NCBI GenBank assembly: GCA_030263535.1
Contig: SZPB01000008.1
Location: forward strand, 1-45,478
DNA from: Cytophagia bacterium CHB2
Lineage (GTDB): Bacteria > Zhuqueibacterota > Zhuqueibacteria > Zhuqueibacterales > Zhuqueibacteraceae
Reading direction: 5' to 3'
Length of the DNA stretch: 45,478 nucleotides
A model generated the notes under the pieces. The model ran no database searches and was not told where the DNA came from. It saw only the letters and a program-made list of their open reading frames with translations. Of this stretch, positions 1 to 9,282 are shown piece after piece. Both the position numbers and the translations under genes were made by a program. Position 1 is the first letter of the stretch. Each line of letters begins with the position of its first letter.

Positions 1-3000
1 GCGCTCGCCGGTTTGTGGTGGGGCGGAGGCAAGGGCATCATTCCGTTGCCGCCCAATCTCAACATGCCGGATGAGTTGCCGCCCGGCCCGGAGCGCCGCC
101 GTCTCTTCGAAGCCTATGGCCGTTTCGTGGCGAGCCTGGGCGGCATTTACTACACCGCGGAAGATGTCGGCACCAAAACAGCGGACATGGATGCGCTGCT
201 CAGCCAGAATCGTTTCACGACATGTATCTCTGAAAAACTCGGCGGCAGCGGCAATCCTTCACCCTTCACCGCGCAAGGCGTGTTGCGCGGCTTGCAGGCC
301 GCGTGGCATTTTCTCACCGGCTCGGATGATCTCAAAGGCGTGCGCGTGGCGGTGCAAGGCGCAGGCAACGTGGGCCGCCCCCTGATCGAGCTGCTCAATG
401 ATCTCGGCGCGCGCGTCTGGATTGCGGATGTGAACGAGCAGGCGATTCAAGCGCTCAAAGCCAAGCAGCCGCGCTTGCAGGTGGTGGGGCCGGATGAAAT
501 TTTCGATCTCGAGGCCGACATTCTCGCGCCGTGCGCGCGCGGGGGTGTGATCAATGCGCAAACGATTCCGCGCTTGAAAGTGAAACTGGTGTGCGGGGCA
601 GCCAACAATATTTTGCTGGAAGAACGTTACGATCCCGAGCGCCTGTGGCGGCGCGGCATCAGCTTCGTGCCGGATTATGTGTGCAACCGCATGGGCATTA
701 CCAATTGCTGCGACGAATGGCACGGCTATTTGCAGGACGATATTCGCGTGGCCGCCGAGCGCGTCTATCCCGATACGCTGCGCGTGCTGCGGCATGCGCA
801 CAATCTCTTTATTCCGCCGACGCAAGCCGCGAACGAGCTGGCAGACGTCGCGGCCAGCGAGCTGCACCCGATTCTCGGACACCGCGGCCGCCGCATCATC
901 GATCATTTGATTGCTTCGAATTGGGCCGATTCGACAAGCTCACGGCAAGCTGGTTCGACAAGCTCACCACAAGTGGGTTCGGCAGGCTCACCGCAAGCCG
1001 GTTCGACCGAGCTAGCTGAAGCCTCTCGGCAGATAATGCGAACGCTTTTCGATCCGCCCATCGACGAGCCGGTGCTTTGCGTCACTTGGGAAAAACAGAA
1101 TCGCTTTCGCGGCGAGGAGAAAGCCATTGCCGCTGCGCCGGTTTCAGCGATTTCGAGTCCCAATCTTTCCTCATTCATGTCGCCGCTGCTGCTAGATGTG
1201 CGTGCGCGTGCGCTTGAAATGTTGACGGAAAAACGGCCGCGGCGCGTGCTCGGCTCGGATCACGGCGGGCTGGCGTTACAGTTGGCAATCGAGCGGTCAC
1301 TGCCTTATGAGCGTGAAGAAGTTGGCCGCGCAGATTTCATCGCGAAATGCCGCGATTATTACAATCGCAACGACGCCGCTATTCGCGAACAATTGCAGCA
1401 GCTCGGCATTGGTTTCGATCCGCCGGCCTGGCTCGATCCCATGGCGGAATCCGGCAAGCGCAGCGGTGAACGATTGTTTTACCGCCTCAAAGATGCCGGT
1501 TTGCTGGTGCGTGAAAAGCGCTGGGCGTATCATTGCCCGCGCTGCGAAACGGTTTTGGTGTCCTCGGACGTCGGCCGCAGCAAACTGAAAATCGATCATC
1601 ATTACAGCATTCGTTTTCGCACGAAAGCGGGCGCAGTCGAGACGAAAACCCATTTTCCGGAATTGGTTTTGGGCGCAGTGGCGGTGGCGGTTAAAGCCTC
1701 CGGGACGTTTGGCAAATTTGCCGGGCAACAGGCGAAGCATCCGGTGAACGGCAATGACGTCCCAATCATCGCTGTTGATGAGCTTGCGGCAGACGCCGTC
1801 TTTTTGGTGCCGGCGCACAACCGCAGCGATGATCAAATCGCGCGTGACGCCGGCATTCGCGAACGCGTGGTCGTATTCGATGAAAAAGGCGCGGTGAGCA
1901 TCGCCGGTTATACCGAGCTATCGCTTGAGGAAGCGCGCCGCAAAGTGCTGGGGCATATTGGCGCAGACGCCACGCAAATTGCCGGACATGAAGCCATTGA
2001 TGCGCACCGCTGCCAGCGTTGCGAGGCCGTGGTCTATCAGCGTTATTCCGAGCAGTTCTTTGTCAACGTTGAAAATGGCGCCGGCCATTTGCGCCGCGCG
2101 ATTGAAACGGGCGCCGTGCAGTTTTCGCACACGCGCTGGCGCGAACGCGTGCTGGCGCATCTTGAGAATTTGGAACCGTGGTGCATCTCGCGGCAACAGT
2201 GGTGGGGCAATGTAATCCCCGGCCATCCGGGCGCGGTGTTTTCGACGTGGTTCTCACTGGCCGCGTGGGCGCTGCAAGGCGCGGGCTGGCCGGCGCAACC
2301 CGCGCCTGCTCCGATTGACGAAGTCTTTGTCGATCCGGAATTGCTGTTGCGCTGGATCGCGCCCTCGCAAATCGTCGCATTGTTGATCACCGGCCGCCCG
2401 GCGTTTCAGCATATCATTGTACATGGCCGTTTGCAAATCTCCGAGCGCGCTTTGCAAACGCGCGCCGAAGTCAGCCCGGAAGCGCATGATGAGGAACGCT
2501 TTCTGTTCCGCGCGGTGCGGCGGCCGATGCGGCACAGCCTCGGCAACGTGGTGCAACCGAGCACGCTGATTCGCCGCTTCGGCGCAGATGCGCTGCGCCT
2601 CGGTTATCTGCTCTGTGTCGAAAACGGCTTTCAAGAAGCCGCCACCGCTGCCGAAAGCAAACTCAAGCGCGGCCGCAAATCCGTGCATCTGTTGACGGCA
2701 AAATTAGCGGGATTATTCAGCATGTTGCGCGAGCCTTGGCACGTTGGCGAGGCGCGGCCGGCGGACAAATTCATCATTGCGCAGGCGACTGCGGCGGCGG
2801 GAGAAGCGCGGCGCGCCTATGAAGAACATCGTTACACCGATGCCGCGGTTATATTAATCGAGATGATCGAAGCGTTTGGCCGTTACGTTAACCTCATCTC
2901 GGCGCGGCGGCAGGCCGGGCATAATCTCGGCGCTGTGACCGCAGCAACCGCGGCCGTGATGACGCGCATGCAGTCGGCGTTCAGCCCCATTTGTCCGTTT

Positions 3001-3210
3001 GTATTTGAGAAGATCGGCAAATGGATAGTCGCACAATGCGCCAATGCCGGCACCGAACCACTGGTCGAGCCGTGGATGGATGAATTGCTGAAACAGGCGT
3101 CCGTTTTGCGCCAGCGCGAGAGTATCGATTTCATGCAAACGCCACTGGCAAAATTGCCCGAGCGCGAGCGCGCTGAAATCTTGCATTTGACCAAGAGTTT
3201 TTTGACATGA
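1..3210 (+). CDS. Leucine/glutamate-type amino-acid dehydrogenase fused to a degenerate valyl-tRNA synthetase (5' partial)
   Basis: The frame is open from base 1, so the real start lies before the window. The first ~300 codons are a Glu/Leu/Phe/Val dehydrogenase: GGGKG with the substrate-site Lys at 31-33, AEDVGT with the catalytic-type Asp at 163-165, and an NAD-binding GAGNVG at 358-375. The fold runs to about 906. A repeat-derived linker (928-1023) follows. From ~1036 the protein follows class I ValRS: GSDHGG at 1252, paired Cys motifs CPRC (1534) and CQRC (2011) likely to bind zinc, the WCISRQQWWG motif near 2178, SLGN at 2536 and a helical anticodon-binding region. Both synthetase signatures are lost: HxGH reads SPLL (1180-1191) and KMSKS reads PMRHS (2524-2538). 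The editing motif RPET reads FPEL (1654). The synthetase half therefore should not charge tRNA; an amino-acid-sensing or regulatory role for the dehydrogenase is inference. A one-off gene fusion is the alternative. Confidence 0.85.
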   Translation, partial: ALAGLWWGGGKGIIPLPPNLNMPDELPPGPERRRLFEAYGRFVASLGGIYYTAEDVGTKTADMDALLSQNRFTTCISEKLGGSGNPSPFTAQGVLRGLQAAWHFLTGSDDLKGVRVAVQGAGNVGRPLIELLNDLGARVWIADVNEQAIQALKAKQPRLQVVGPDEIFDLEADILAPCARGGVINAQTIPRLKVKLVCGAANNILLEERYDPERLWRRGISFVPDYVCNRMGITNCCDEWHGYLQDDIRVAAERVYPDTLRVLRHAHNLFIPPTQAANELADVAASELHPILGHRGRRIIDHLIASNWADSTSSRQAGSTSSPQVGSAGSPQAGSTELAEASRQIMRTLFDPPIDEPVLCVTWEKQNRFRGEEKAIAAAPVSAISSPNLSSFMSPLLLDVRARALEMLTEKRPRRVLGSDHGGLALQLAIERSLPYEREEVGRADFIAKCRDYYNRNDAAIREQLQQLGIGFDPPAWLDPMAESGKRSGERLFYRLKDAGLLVREKRWAYHCPRCETVLVSSDVGRSKLKIDHHYSIRFRTKAGAVETKTHFPELVLGAVAVAVKASGTFGKFAGQQAKHPVNGNDVPIIAVDELAADAVFLVPAHNRSDDQIARDAGIRERVVVFDEKGAVSIAGYTELSLEEARRKVLGHIGADATQIAGHEAIDAHRCQRCEAVVYQRYSEQFFVNVENGAGHLRRAIETGAVQFSHTRWRERVLAHLENLEPWCISRQQWWGNVIPGHPGAVFSTWFSLAAWALQGAGWPAQPAPAPIDEVFVDPELLLRWIAPSQIVALLITGRPAFQHIIVHGRLQISERALQTRAEVSPEAHDEERFLFRAVRRPMRHSLGNVVQPSTLIRRFGADALRLGYLLCVENGFQEAATAAESKLKRGRKSVHLLTAKLAGLFSMLREPWHVGEARPADKFIIAQATAAAGEARRAYEEHRYTDAAVILIEMIEAFGRYVNLISARRQAGHNLGAVTAATAAVMTRMQSAFSPICPFVFEKIGKWIVAQCANAGTEPLVEPWMDELLKQASVLRQRESIDFMQTPLAKLPERERAEILHLTKSFLT
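928..1023 (+). repeat. Four in-frame 24-bp tandem repeats forming the interdomain linker
   Basis: Four units of 24 bp (928-951, 952-975, 976-999, 1000-1023) share the core GGTTCGACAAGCTCACC; the fourth is the most diverged. Because the period is a multiple of three, each unit adds eight residues of the type GSTSSPQV. The core resembles a short repeat that recurs between genes in many uncultured bacterial genomes (from memory, not checked). Here it lies exactly between dehydrogenase and synthetase-like modules. Confidence 0.85.
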
Positions 3211-4517: not shown

Positions 4518-5168
4518 TTGAATGCCGAGAGCGCCAAAATGATCAATGCCGGTGTTTTGACATTTCGAGAGTTTGTCATGCGTGAATCGTTGCCGTTGGC
4601 CAGCCTTCACCAGGCGGTATTGGAGTTTTTGCACGACCGCAACGATGCCGTTTTATTTGGCGCGCAGGCCGTAAACGCCTATGTCAGTGAGCCGCGCATG
4701 TCGCAGGATATCGATCTGCTTTCGCCCCGCGCCGCTGAACTTGCCGAAGAGCTTCGAAATTATTTGAGCAAGTGCTTTCACATTGCCGTGTGGGTGAGAG
4801 AAATTGGTGAAGGGAGAGGATATCGCTTGTTTCAAGCGCGTAAATCCGGTGATCGTCATTTAGTCGATCTTAGGCCTGTTGCGAAATTGCCAGCGGCGAA
4901 ACGTATTGACAAAATATTGGTAATGGCGCCAGAGGAATTGATTGCCAGCAAGGTGATAGCTTACCATCAACGACGTGGAAATCCCAAGTCCGGAACGGAT
5001 TGGCGGGATTTGGCGATGCTTCTGTTAACTTTTCCGGATCTTAAACAAGACGACGGAGCGGTTGTTGATCGGCTCCTGGCCGCTGGCGTTGATCCTTCGG
5101 TTTTGCAAGTCTGGAAGGATTTGGCAGCGCAACAGATACAAGCGCCGGACGAGGACGATGAGTTTTAA
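4518..5168 (+). CDS. AbiEii-type nucleotidyltransferase-fold protein
   Basis: 216 codons from a TTG; ATG codons at 4539 and 4578 are alternative starts and no ribosome site decides. The segment VLFGAQAVNAYV followed by SQDIDLLS matches the nucleotidyltransferase fold of AbiEii/AbiGii toxins, with the paired Asp (DID) as the metal ligands. The usual GGxA glycine motif is altered to GAQA. A later EELIASKVIAYHQRRG segment fits the conserved Lys-containing helix of this family. There is no obvious antitoxin gene next to it, so it is either an orphan toxin-like protein or a housekeeping variant. It ends nine bases before rarA. Confidence 0.65.
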   Translation: MNAESAKMINAGVLTFREFVMRESLPLASLHQAVLEFLHDRNDAVLFGAQAVNAYVSEPRMSQDIDLLSPRAAELAEELRNYLSKCFHIAVWVREIGEGRGYRLFQARKSGDRHLVDLRPVAKLPAAKRIDKILVMAPEELIASKVIAYHQRRGNPKSGTDWRDLAMLLLTFPDLKQDDGAVVDRLLAAGVDPSVLQVWKDLAAQQIQAPDEDDEF

Positions 5169-5177
5169 TCACGTTTT

Positions 5178-6545
5178 ATGTCATTAATCATGAATCTCTT
5201 CGAACAAACCGCGCAGGAAAACGTGCAGCGCAGCACGCCGCTGGCAGAACGCATGCGGCCGCAGCGTATCGATGCTTTTGTCGGCCAGGATCATCTGCTG
5301 GCGCAAGGCAAGCCCTTGCGCGCCGCGTTTGAGAGCGGTGAATTCGGCTCGCTAATTCTCTGGGGGCCGCCGGGCAGCGGCAAAACCACTTTGGCAAAAT
5401 TGCTCGCCGGCGCAGCCCGGGCGGATTTCTTCATGCTCAGCGCGGTCGCCAGCGGTGTGAGCGAGGTGCGCGAAGTGCTGCAAAAAGCGATGAATAACCG
5501 CAAAGTCGGCAAGCAAACGGTATTGTTTATCGACGAAATTCACCGTTTTAATAAGGCGCAACAGGACGCGCTGCTGCAGCGCGTGGAAGACGGCACCATC
5601 ACGTTGATCGGCGCGACCACGGAAAATCCCTCGTTCGAAGTGATCTCGCCGTTGCTCTCGCGTTGCCAGGTTTATACTCTCAAAGCACTATCCGATGATG
5701 CGCTCCTGCAAATCATCGAGCAGGCGCTGGCGAACGATACGCAACTTAAAAATGCCAGGGCTGTAATCGACGAGAAAGCGCGACGCTTTCTGGTGCAGCT
5801 TTCCGCCGGCGATGCACGCGCCGCGCTCAACGGCCTGGAATTGGCCATCCGGCTCGCGAAACCAAATGCCTCGGGTCAGCGCGTTCTTGCGATTGATCAT
5901 ATTCGCGAGGCGGTGCAGAAGCGCGCGCTGAACTATGATCGCGCCGGCGAGCAGCATTATGACACGATTTCCGCGTTCATCAAAAGCGTGCGCGGCGGCG
6001 ATCCCAATGCCGCGCTGCACTATCTGGCGCGCATGCTGGAAGCGGGCGAAGATCCGAAATTCATTGCGCGGCGTTTGATCATTCTCGCGAGTGAAGACAT
6101 TGGCAACGCCGATCCCATGGGTTTGGTTGTCGCAACCTCGGCATTCACGGCGATAACTTACATCGGCCTGCCCGAAGGCGCATTGGTGCTGGCGCAAGCC
6201 ACAACCTATCTTGCCTCTGCGCCCAAAAGCAACGCTTCATATTTGGCGCTCAAAGCCGCGACGCAGGAGGTGAAGGAAAAGCCGTTGGCCCCGATTCCCC
6301 TGCACATTCGCAATGCCCCCACCGGTTTGCTGGCAGCCGAGGGCTACGGCTTGGGATACAAGTATCCGCACGATTTTCCCGGGCATTTCGTGGAACAGAA
6401 TTATTTGCCCGGCAATTTAACAGAGGCGCTGTATTACCGGCCCTCTCAAAACGGGGCAGAAGTCGAGATGAGCAAACGCTTGCAGCAGTGGTGGGAGAAA
6501 TACCGTAAAGAAAACCCTGAGTCAAAAGATAAAAATGAAAAGTGA
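5178..6545 (+). CDS. rarA: Replication-associated recombination protein A (AAA+ ATPase)
   Basis: 455 codons, full length for RarA/MgsA, the clamp-loader-like AAA+ ATPase that acts at stalled replication forks. Visible are RMRPQRIDAFVGQDHL near the N-terminus, Walker A GPPGSGKT, Walker B VLFIDEIHRF, the sensor-1 segment GATTENPSFE and the C-terminal tetramerisation/DNA-binding region with PIPLHIRNAPTGL. An ATG at 5190 (MNLFEQ) is an equally good start; no strong ribosome site separates the two. The 3' end overlaps lptD by 11 bases, suggesting co-expression. Confidence 0.93.
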   Translation: MSLIMNLFEQTAQENVQRSTPLAERMRPQRIDAFVGQDHLLAQGKPLRAAFESGEFGSLILWGPPGSGKTTLAKLLAGAARADFFMLSAVASGVSEVREVLQKAMNNRKVGKQTVLFIDEIHRFNKAQQDALLQRVEDGTITLIGATTENPSFEVISPLLSRCQVYTLKALSDDALLQIIEQALANDTQLKNARAVIDEKARRFLVQLSAGDARAALNGLELAIRLAKPNASGQRVLAIDHIREAVQKRALNYDRAGEQHYDTISAFIKSVRGGDPNAALHYLARMLEAGEDPKFIARRLIILASEDIGNADPMGLVVATSAFTAITYIGLPEGALVLAQATTYLASAPKSNASYLALKAATQEVKEKPLAPIPLHIRNAPTGLLAAEGYGLGYKYPHDFPGHFVEQNYLPGNLTEALYYRPSQNGAEVEMSKRLQQWWEKYRKENPESKDKNEK

Positions 6546-9282
6546 TGTGCCAGTTTACCGGTTGCCATGGCCGAGGCCTTTTTATAAAATTCTTGTTCGC
6601 CTCGCGTTTTCGCGTATCGTTCATTTGCTTGCGGCGGTTTTTACTTTGCCTTCGGCTCTGTATGCCCAGGAACCCACTATCAAGGAAATTCTGTGGTCCG
6701 ATAGCACGCATACGGCCTTGTTCAAACCGGATTCGATAACCACGGATTCCCTTGAGTCTTCCCCCATCACCGAAAAATCCGATCTTGATGCCCCAATCGA
6801 TTACACCGCTTCTGCCATTGAGATTCTTGTGCCGGGACGCGTGATTGTTTTGACCGGCAAGGCCGTGGTGAAATACAAAACCGCCACACTCACGGCCGGG
6901 CGCATTACGGTTGACATGGACAAGCGCACGCTGCTCGCCGAGCCGTTGCCGGATTCATTGCGCACGACGCCGCCGAAAACAACGGAAGCCGCAAACGGCA
7001 AAGCAGAAGGTGAAGACGATTTCCCTACGTTTTCGGATGGCGGCGACAAAATTGTGGGCGAGCAGATGGAGTATAATTTCTCCACCGAAAAAGGCCGGGT
7101 CTTGCGCGGGCGCACAGAGTTTGACGGCGGCCACTATTACGGCGCCCGCATCAAACGCGTCGATGATAAAACGCTGAACGTCGGCAGCGGCACCTACACC
7201 ACCTGCGCGCTCGATGAAAATCCACATTTTCATTTTTGGAGCCGCCAGATGAAAATCACGGTGCAGGATAAGGTCGTGGCCAAGCCGGTGGTGTTTTTTC
7301 TGGGCAAAATTCCGCTGGCGATTCTGCCGTTTGCCGTGTTTCCCACCAAAACCGGCCGTCATTCCGGATTGCTTATTCCCAAATACGGCCAAAGCGCGCT
7401 CGAAGGCCGTTTCCTGCGTGATCTTGGCTATTATTGGGCGGTGAATGATTATCTTGACGCGCGCGCCACCGTCGATTTCTATGATCGCTCGGGCTGGCTG
7501 CTGCGCGGCGATTTGGCTTATGTCAAGCGTTATGCTTATCGCGGCAGCATCGGCGGCTCAATCACGCGCAAAAATTTTGCACTCAGCGATACGGAAGAAC
7601 GCTCGTGGGATTTGCGTATGAATCACAACCAACCCATTGGGGAAAGTTCGTCGTTGAATGCCTCCGGCACCTTCACCAGCGGCGGGAGTTTCTATAACAA
7701 CACCACCTCTAACCGCGATCAACAGCTTCGCCAACGCTTGACCTCGCAGGCGACGTATTCGACGCGCCTGGGCAACAACAGCCTCTCGCTCAACCTTTCG
7801 GAAAGCAAGGATTTGCAGGACGGCTCGTTCACCCGCACGTTGCCGGCCATCAGCTTCAGCATGCCGCAACGCCCGCTATTTGCTCCGAAAAAAAAGAAGA
7901 AATCCGGCGGTGTGAGCACGATCAGCCTGGAAGAGATTCCGTGGTATCAAAACATTCAATTCAGTTATTCCGGCAATGCGAGTTATCAAGTCAGCCGCGG
8001 CCGGGAAGTGAACGGCGTGGCGGCGCCCAAGCAAACGCTGGGGCGCGCCAATCACGCGCTCAATCTTTCACAATACAGCCCAAAGTATTTCGGCTGGCTT
8101 TCGCTTTCACAATCCGTTGCGATGCGAGAGGATTGGTTTGATCGCCGTAAAGATTATTTTGCCATCGATACTAGCAAAACCGACCTTCCTGCCGGCGCTT
8201 CTTTGATTTCCTCGAGTCTCGCCTCGCGCGAAGACAAAGGTTTTTTTCAACGCTATACGTTCAACTACACCGCCTCTGCGAACACAAAACTCTACGGTAC
8301 TTTTTTCCCAAAAATTTGGTCGATTCAAGCCTTGCGCCACGAGCTGTCGCCCAGCATTTCGTTCTCTTATCAACCGGATTTTGCTGGCAGTTTTTGGAGG
8401 TACTATCAAGAAGTGACGCTGCTCGACAGCACAACCCGAAAGCTCGATCGTTATGGCGGCACGAGTCAAGGCACGGTGGCGAGCTTAAACTTCGGCCTCA
8501 ACAATCTTTTTCAAATGAAGACCGGCTCTGAAGAAAAACCGAAGAAGATCAATCTCTTCAACCTCGGATTATCGACGGGTTACAACTTCGCTGCCGAGCA
8601 GTTCAAGCAAAGCCCGTTGTTTTCCAATTTACAGGCCAGCCCGGCGCGCGGCGTGTCGGTGAGCTTGAACGCCTCACACAGTTTTTATGACGTCGATTCC
8701 ACCGGCACGGAGATTCATCGTTTGCTGTGGAAGAAAAATGGCATCTTCAGCGGAAATTATCTCCGACTCACCAGCGCCTCGTTGAGTGCGAGCATTCAAT
8801 TGCAAGGGAAAACCGGCGGCGCGCCGGAAGCGGCTCCGGTTTCCTCACAAAATGTTTTTGATGAGGACGAAACGCTGGCGCAACCGCCGTCGCCGTTTGG
8901 CCCCTTTTCTCCACAACAAGATTATGTTGATGCGTCAGTGCCGTGGAGCGCAAATTTTGGATTGAGCTACAGCTTGAGCCGCGCCAATCCGCTGCGGCCC
9001 ACGAAGTATGCGCAACTCAATCTCAGCAACGCGCGCGTGCAATTGACCAAAAATCTCAGCCTGGATTATTCCGCGCAATTCGACCTGGTGCAAAAGGCGG
9101 TTATCTATCAAAGCTACAGCGTGTATCGCGATTTGCATTGCTGGGAGATGCGCGTCACGTGGATTCCCTCGGGCACGCGCCAGAGTTTTTACATGAGCAT
9201 CAGTTTGAAATCGCCGTTGCAGGATATCAAACTCGAAAAGCGCGGTGGGCGGTCGAGTGTGTTTGGAGGGTCGTATTATTAA
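6535..9282 (+). CDS. lptD: LPS-assembly outer-membrane protein LptD
   Basis: 915 codons. A signal peptide with a hydrophobic run ends in ALYAQE near residue 45. It is followed by an OstA/LptA-like jellyroll segment (roughly residues 85-210, with EILVPGRVIVLTGKAVVKY and the GGDKIVGEQMEYNF stretch). The remainder is a long beta-barrel of alternating aromatic and polar residues, closing with HCWEMRVTWIPSG, a pattern typical of FCB-type LptD. LptD inserts lipopolysaccharide into the outer leaflet. Only two cysteines are evident (TTCALDE and LHCWEM), so the enterobacterial disulphide pattern is absent. Start overlaps the rarA stop. The inner-membrane partners LptF and LptG lie at 13138-15876. Confidence 0.9.
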   Translation: MKSDVPVYRLPWPRPFYKILVRLAFSRIVHLLAAVFTLPSALYAQEPTIKEILWSDSTHTALFKPDSITTDSLESSPITEKSDLDAPIDYTASAIEILVPGRVIVLTGKAVVKYKTATLTAGRITVDMDKRTLLAEPLPDSLRTTPPKTTEAANGKAEGEDDFPTFSDGGDKIVGEQMEYNFSTEKGRVLRGRTEFDGGHYYGARIKRVDDKTLNVGSGTYTTCALDENPHFHFWSRQMKITVQDKVVAKPVVFFLGKIPLAILPFAVFPTKTGRHSGLLIPKYGQSALEGRFLRDLGYYWAVNDYLDARATVDFYDRSGWLLRGDLAYVKRYAYRGSIGGSITRKNFALSDTEERSWDLRMNHNQPIGESSSLNASGTFTSGGSFYNNTTSNRDQQLRQRLTSQATYSTRLGNNSLSLNLSESKDLQDGSFTRTLPAISFSMPQRPLFAPKKKKKSGGVSTISLEEIPWYQNIQFSYSGNASYQVSRGREVNGVAAPKQTLGRANHALNLSQYSPKYFGWLSLSQSVAMREDWFDRRKDYFAIDTSKTDLPAGASLISSSLASREDKGFFQRYTFNYTASANTKLYGTFFPKIWSIQALRHELSPSISFSYQPDFAGSFWRYYQEVTLLDSTTRKLDRYGGTSQGTVASLNFGLNNLFQMKTGSEEKPKKINLFNLGLSTGYNFAAEQFKQSPLFSNLQASPARGVSVSLNASHSFYDVDSTGTEIHRLLWKKNGIFSGNYLRLTSASLSASIQLQGKTGGAPEAAPVSSQNVFDEDETLAQPPSPFGPFSPQQDYVDASVPWSANFGLSYSLSRANPLRPTKYAQLNLSNARVQLTKNLSLDYSAQFDLVQKAVIYQSYSVYRDLHCWEMRVTWIPSGTRQSFYMSISLKSPLQDIKLEKRGGRSSVFGGSYY

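Follow-up and report, generated by a model that had tools for sequence, protein, structure and literature searches.

We describe a gene fusion, whose existence as a preserved pseudo-synthetase fusion we regard as nearly certain, between a Leu/Glu-type amino-acid dehydrogenase and a relative of valyl-tRNA synthetase (ValRS) that, judging from its motifs, is no longer able to charge tRNA. The gene lies in the window, i.e., the whole 45,478-nt stretch that was analyzed, which runs from base 1 of contig C8 in a 6.98-Mb assembly (G000). As the initial annotation had claimed, positions 1-3210 of the forward strand form a single uninterrupted frame (1069 codons), which enters from the contig edge and is hence truncated at its 5' end. 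Two Pfam domains were identified along this frame: ELFV_dehydrogenase (PF00208; 1.4e-14), then tRNA-synt_1 (PF00133; 7.5e-33). The gene is organized as follows:

1..930, forward strand: Leu/Glu-type amino-acid dehydrogenase domain, truncated at its 5' end (Pfam PF00208; matches to leucine dehydrogenase, LeuDH; K80, A113, D115, GxGNVG)
931..1047, forward strand: interdomain linker, variable, rich in Ser/Ala/Gly, longer than in G001 and G002 (alignment)
1048..3207, forward strand: ValRS-like module with catalytic fold, editing-like insertion and shortened anticodon part, without C-terminal coiled coil (PF00133; 1gax_A; AlphaFold2)
3208..3210, forward strand: stop codon of the fusion gene

The N-terminus that is absent from the window (~108 amino acids, 82% to G001) was found at the end of another contig of the same assembly (C508). 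Homologues with both domains were recovered in two additional species of this genus (assemblies G001 and G002), each with the whole fusion in one frame (1178 and 1185 codons, respectively). In a second metagenome-assembled genome (MAG) of the window's species (G081), the fusion is in pieces, with its N-terminal and C-terminal parts on two contigs; contig QEVD01000765.1 of this MAG shares a stretch of 696 bases with the window at 98% identity. The fusion is therefore present in four assemblies in total, representing three related uncultured species of one genus. Since the contig edge cuts the gene at the start of the window, an assembly or annotation artefact, i.e., two genes whose separating stop codon was lost, had to be considered. 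This is scarcely credible: the same joined frame lies on a 340-kb contig in G001 and on a 67-kb contig in G002, and a stop lost in the window's assembly alone is ruled out by these two species and by the pieces in G081. No linker start codon common to all three species was found, which also argues against the module being translated separately. Within the linker (931-1047), the window's species carries imperfect repeats (AGSTSSPQ/VGSAGSPQ/AGSTEL) that are absent from the other two species.

Among 82 genomes of the phylum, dehydrogenase homologues were found across the set but long joined dehydrogenase-module frames were restricted to this genus; the nearest dehydrogenase homologues outside the genus are stand-alone genes, mostly of 433-490 codons. 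The C-termini of these stand-alone dehydrogenases align with the start of the fusion's linker (HPIFGHRGQQII.SLV..RW), which indicates an end-to-end fusion, and the module opens where ValRS itself naturally begins (Y7 in T. thermophilus). A module search of 60 relatives and the second MAG revealed no stand-alone pseudo-ValRS or fusion elsewhere in the phylum. A scan of genome contigs for exact 8-residue patterns, which reached other phyla at low sensitivity, matched the second MAG only. In a plasmid collection, among the matches listed, the module hit ordinary ValRS only and the dehydrogenase hit ordinary dehydrogenases only. Finally, no description of a ValRS-dehydrogenase fusion was found in the literature searched, in agreement with the initial annotation, which knew of none. 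Downstream of the fusion, the window encodes an AbiEii-type nucleotidyltransferase-like protein (4518-5168; Pfam PF08843, 1.9e-10); the frames beside it, 5178-6545 and 6535-9282, encode a MgsA/RarA-type AAA ATPase and an LptD-like protein, respectively.

The dehydrogenase half is apparently intact. The G001 orthologue matches solved LeuDH structures (6acf, 1leh; matches to 1.6e-78), and the identity of the fusion's dehydrogenase to 6acf is 42% over 335 columns. It resembles LeuDH and the Glu-Leu-Phe-Val dehydrogenases (PF00208/PF02812) in overall sequence, in the catalytic residues K68, K80 and D115 (all present in G001 and G002; the window has K80 and D115, K68 being cut off) and in the NAD-binding GxGNVG, which reads VQGAGNVG in all three species. 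It differs from LeuDH by its C-terminal fusion, by an N-terminal extension common to the stand-alone homologues of the phylum and by its pocket, where L40, A113, V291 and V294 are replaced by or kept as Q, A, I and C (L40Q, V291I, V294C). The stand-alone homologues have the same I and C but Ala or Ser at position 40. Because this pocket differs from that of LeuDH and does not indicate branched-chain specificity, the "branched-chain" label that the enzyme had initially been given is unproven. A long-form Leu-type dehydrogenase subfamily (L103-L112) with an N-terminal extension occurs in several families of the phylum, and in it NRMGIV(N/H/T)C replaces the NAGGVINV of LeuDH.

The second half of the gene is a ValRS-like module of ~720 residues with ~25% identity to working ValRS. 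Its sequence matches T. thermophilus ValRS (1gax_A) with an E-value of 1.6e-38, and its best matches among the curated NCBIfam models are those of ValRS, whose cut-offs it fails (235 bits against 704 for NF004349; 194 against 612 for TIGR00422). We located the following motifs in the module:

1144..1197, forward strand: position of the HIGH signature, lost by deletion and substitutions, alike in three species (alignment)
1252..1269, forward strand: GSDHGG core, with the equivalents of Asp81/His82 in T. thermophilus ValRS (alignment)
1534..1545, forward strand: CPRC, first cysteine pair of the zinc site that is retained
1654..1665, forward strand: FPEL, replacing the editing motif RPET
1801..1830, forward strand: second stretch of the editing site, with the changes K270F, T272V and D276N and an unchanged D279
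2011..2022, forward strand: CQRC, second cysteine pair of that zinc site
2179..2208, forward strand: WCISRQQWWG, conserved core motif of the catalytic domain, kept
2248..2355, forward strand: equivalents of Trp456 (2248-2250) and Trp495 (2353-2355), kept; Ile491 is Leu
2524..2538, forward strand: PMRHS, replacing KMSKS
2581..2598, forward strand: GADALR motif, kept

The loss of activation and editing residues that had been proposed from the window alone was observed in all three species. The HIGH signature is deleted or substituted in each of them, KMSKS reads PMRHS or PMRRS, and at the editing site the Thr of RPET is Leu (FPEL), K270 is F, T272 is V and D276 is N or H, leaving D279 alone. The initial annotation had aligned the HIGH signature with SPLL. 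This tetrapeptide was found at 1180-1191, just as FPEL and PMRHS were found where they had been placed, and HIGH is absent either way; however, SPLL is one of two alignments, and a deletion through HIGH describes the sequence better. In the best alignment, six residues are deleted through V45-H50 (T. thermophilus numbering) and Leu-(Ser/Ala)-Ser stands opposite Met51-Gly52-His53; the spacing from SPN to GSDHGG is ~5 residues less than in real ValRS.

Much of the synthetase is kept nonetheless. The module retains in all three species 77 of the 173 near-invariant ValRS columns, including GxDH, WCISRQ..WWG, TWFS and residues of the GADALR region, and all four cysteines of one zinc site; retention of zinc cysteines and of the GSDHGG core had been correctly noted from the window. 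Relative to the ValRS enzyme (NF004349/TIGR00422; 1gax), it shares the fold, the domain order, the CP1 editing-like insertion, one zinc site, GxDHxG, WCISRQ..WWG and GADALR, but lacks HIGH, KMSKS and the editing Thr/Lys/Asp, has deletions that remove the second zinc site and the coiled coil at the C-terminus, and is fused to a dehydrogenase. Large deletions were observed on its tRNA-binding side, and its anticodon part, with 7 of 28 near-invariant columns kept, falls below the Pfam cut-off. The residues of T. thermophilus ValRS that we take to form the Val pocket include P41, P42, D81, W456, I491 and W495; in the module, the equivalents of D81, W456 and W495 are kept, whereas P41 is replaced by Ser or Ala, P42 by Ser and I491 by Leu.

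A structure prediction agreed with this assignment. An AlphaFold2 model of the module, built from the query and 12 distant homologues, has a mean pLDDT of 66, with about 90 in the editing-like domain and low confidence around the HIGH region. Its nearest solved structure is T. thermophilus ValRS (1gax_A) by both methods (E-value of 2.7e-29; Z of 26.2 with 607 aligned residues and an rmsd of 3.8). The module is of the class I ValRS fold, and not of the class II HisRS fold. Modeling the dehydrogenase half with AlphaFold2 from its single sequence gave a poor result (pLDDT of 42), which was left out.

We then measured selection as pairwise Nei-Gojobori dN/dS among the three species, a number that allows constraint to be judged for whole segments. 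The dehydrogenase has dN/dS values of 0.05-0.07 and the module 0.13-0.17, compared with 0.09-0.14 in the separate valS, so that the "dead" half is under purifying selection. Within the module, evolution is fastest in the anticodon part, where dN/dS is 0.19-0.26 and the two most distant species share 54-56% identity. Under neutrality, about 22 stops were expected in the module at the smallest pairwise dS of 0.64 (minimum of 10 in 500 runs) and none was observed; neither stops nor frameshifts interrupt it at pairwise dS of 0.6-1.3. The low dN/dS and the lack of stops indicate that the module is maintained. The ~25% identity to working ValRS and the loss of the catalytic motifs might be expected of a decaying relic riding on the frame of an essential dehydrogenase. 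We consider this very improbable, because the module is under purifying selection close to that of real valS, is free of stops and frameshifts and has its core motifs in all species. Since evolution preserves a half that has lost its original activity, the module probably has a new function, and this function is likely regulatory.

A separate and complete valS, whose presence would be expected if the module does not charge tRNA, was found with both HLGH and KMSKT: 911 codons in G001 (L039:5314-8049) and 936 codons in G002 (L040:10056-12866). The window's species also has a complete valS of this type, with 907 codons in G081 (L128:3688-6411); the copy in G000 (L041:1-2403) is 5'-truncated. In G001, the ATG that opens valS lies 9 bases past the stop of the fusion, which suggests that the fusion is co-expressed with valine charging; in G002, the valS frame lies about 430 bases downstream of the fusion. 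In the window's species, fusion and valS are on separate contigs and their neighbors differ.

The valS of this genus has no zinc cysteines, unlike the other valS genes examined in the phylum. Moreover, the valS-recG neighborhood of related genera is present in this genus (L159, L161) with valS absent from it. The empty recG neighborhood and the different type of valS suggest that valS was exchanged, and this essential synthetase gene has likely been replaced in this genus. The origin of the module was examined with phylogenetic trees, in which it sits on an extremely long branch and no grouping was rejected at P < 0.05 (AU test; P = 0.063 with the family's valS, 0.41 with all native valS of the phylum and 0.21 with the genus's present valS). 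The valS-free recG neighborhood and the different type of valS had suggested that the module might be the family's displaced native valS; this origin is unsupported, as the module has only 1 of the 49 residues that mark the valS of the family. Its origin as a recent tandem copy of the neighboring valS is likewise unsupported (mean identity of 24%; 17 of 183 signatures). Separately, ValRS-like proteins of ~505 residues are encoded on IMG/VR contigs of 277-543 kb (L146:3021-4541, L147:2997-4505 and L149:3012-4574); in two of these viral proteins the HMGH-KMSK distance is about 275 residues and the editing domain is seemingly lacking.

Several new functions can be envisioned for the module. We favor, at a little short of an even chance and by analogy, a ligand-binding accessory domain exerting allosteric control over the dehydrogenase with a logic like that of HisZ. 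One polypeptide joins, end to end, a long-form Leu-type dehydrogenase and a ValRS relative that has given up amino-acid activation and editing but kept its fold; this relative would serve the dehydrogenase as an accessory domain without catalysis of its own. What is left of the synthetase pocket may bind a small ligand, namely an amino acid such as Val or another aliphatic one, and this binding would control the dehydrogenase allosterically, as HisZ does for HisG. Binding of a small ligand is favored because the module has kept the core residues of the amino-acid site and the zinc-braced fold but not the features for ATP, editing and tRNA; an allosteric role is favored because HisZ plays this role for HisG. 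The amino-acid-sensing step itself is plausible, if tentative. The Val/Leu/Ile sensor suggested by the initial annotation is not established: the equivalents of D81, W456 and W495 are kept but P41 and P42 are lost. Further points against ligand sensing are the Leu at I491, the low confidence of the model around the HIGH region, a dehydrogenase pocket unlike that of canonical LeuDH, the small number of species with the fusion (three) and the separate contigs of valS and fusion in the window's species.

The main rival is a structural or docking domain that determines how the dehydrogenase oligomerizes or anchors it to a partner, e.g., the neighboring ValRS, without any small ligand. Such a role, which we consider rather unlikely, is consistent with a fold and a zinc site kept while catalytic residues were lost, with the large deletions on the tRNA-binding side and with the adjacency of fusion and valS in G001 and G002. 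However, the equivalents of D81, W456 and W495 are invariant, which goes beyond the needs of a pure scaffold, although they are possibly kept for folding.

Dead synthetase domains can also sense tRNA. The pseudo-HisRS domain of GCN2, a class II domain of a eukaryotic kinase, is fused to its effector enzyme and binds uncharged tRNA. By the same arrangement of dead synthetase and effector, the module could sense tRNA, e.g., uncharged tRNA-Val, and signal to the dehydrogenase; it derives from a tRNA-binding enzyme, its net charge is positive (+3 to +9), unlike that of working ValRS (-5 to -33), and valS is adjacent in two species. This reading is unlikely because, in contrast to GCN2, the regions for tRNA binding have eroded: constraint is lowest in the anticodon part, and the coiled coil is missing. 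These two features argue against ordinary binding of tRNA(Val), and the tRNA-binding regulator proposed initially is not established.

It is also very unlikely that the module has gained another chemistry independent of HIGH and KMSKS, such as acyl transfer or hydrolysis. There are relatives of synthetases that now serve other reactions (PMC9437257), and a conserved stretch, SPLLLDVRARA, is new to the module, but neither Pfam nor NCBIfam detected a catalytic motif of another family in it.

The closest parallel to the favored reading, in which the module is a ligand-binding regulator of the dehydrogenase, is HisZ, a synthetase relative without adenylation activity that mediates allosteric inhibition by an amino acid (PMC9437257). 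Both are non-adenylating synthetase relatives attached to an enzyme of amino-acid metabolism, a property predicted here from the lost motifs. HisZ is a class II protein and a separate subunit with a shown allosteric function, whereas the fusion module is of class I, covalently attached and regulatory by prediction only. LysX is another bacterial covalent fusion of synthetase and enzyme, in which the catalytic synthetase part supplies lysine for transfer to phosphatidylglycerol (PMC9437257); it differs from our fusion, whose synthetase part has no catalytic motifs.

It is possible, and we propose it with caution, that a class I synthetase was turned here into a covalent, non-charging amino-acid sensor of a valS-adjacent dehydrogenase, i.e., the class I counterpart of HisZ. 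To our knowledge, synthetase relatives that lost charging and became regulators are known mainly from class II (HisZ and the HisRS-like domain of GCN2). No case involving ValRS is mentioned in the main text of a review on duplicated synthetases (PMC9437257). If true, this fusion would offer a ready-made test of the reuse of a class I synthetase pocket as a metabolic sensor.
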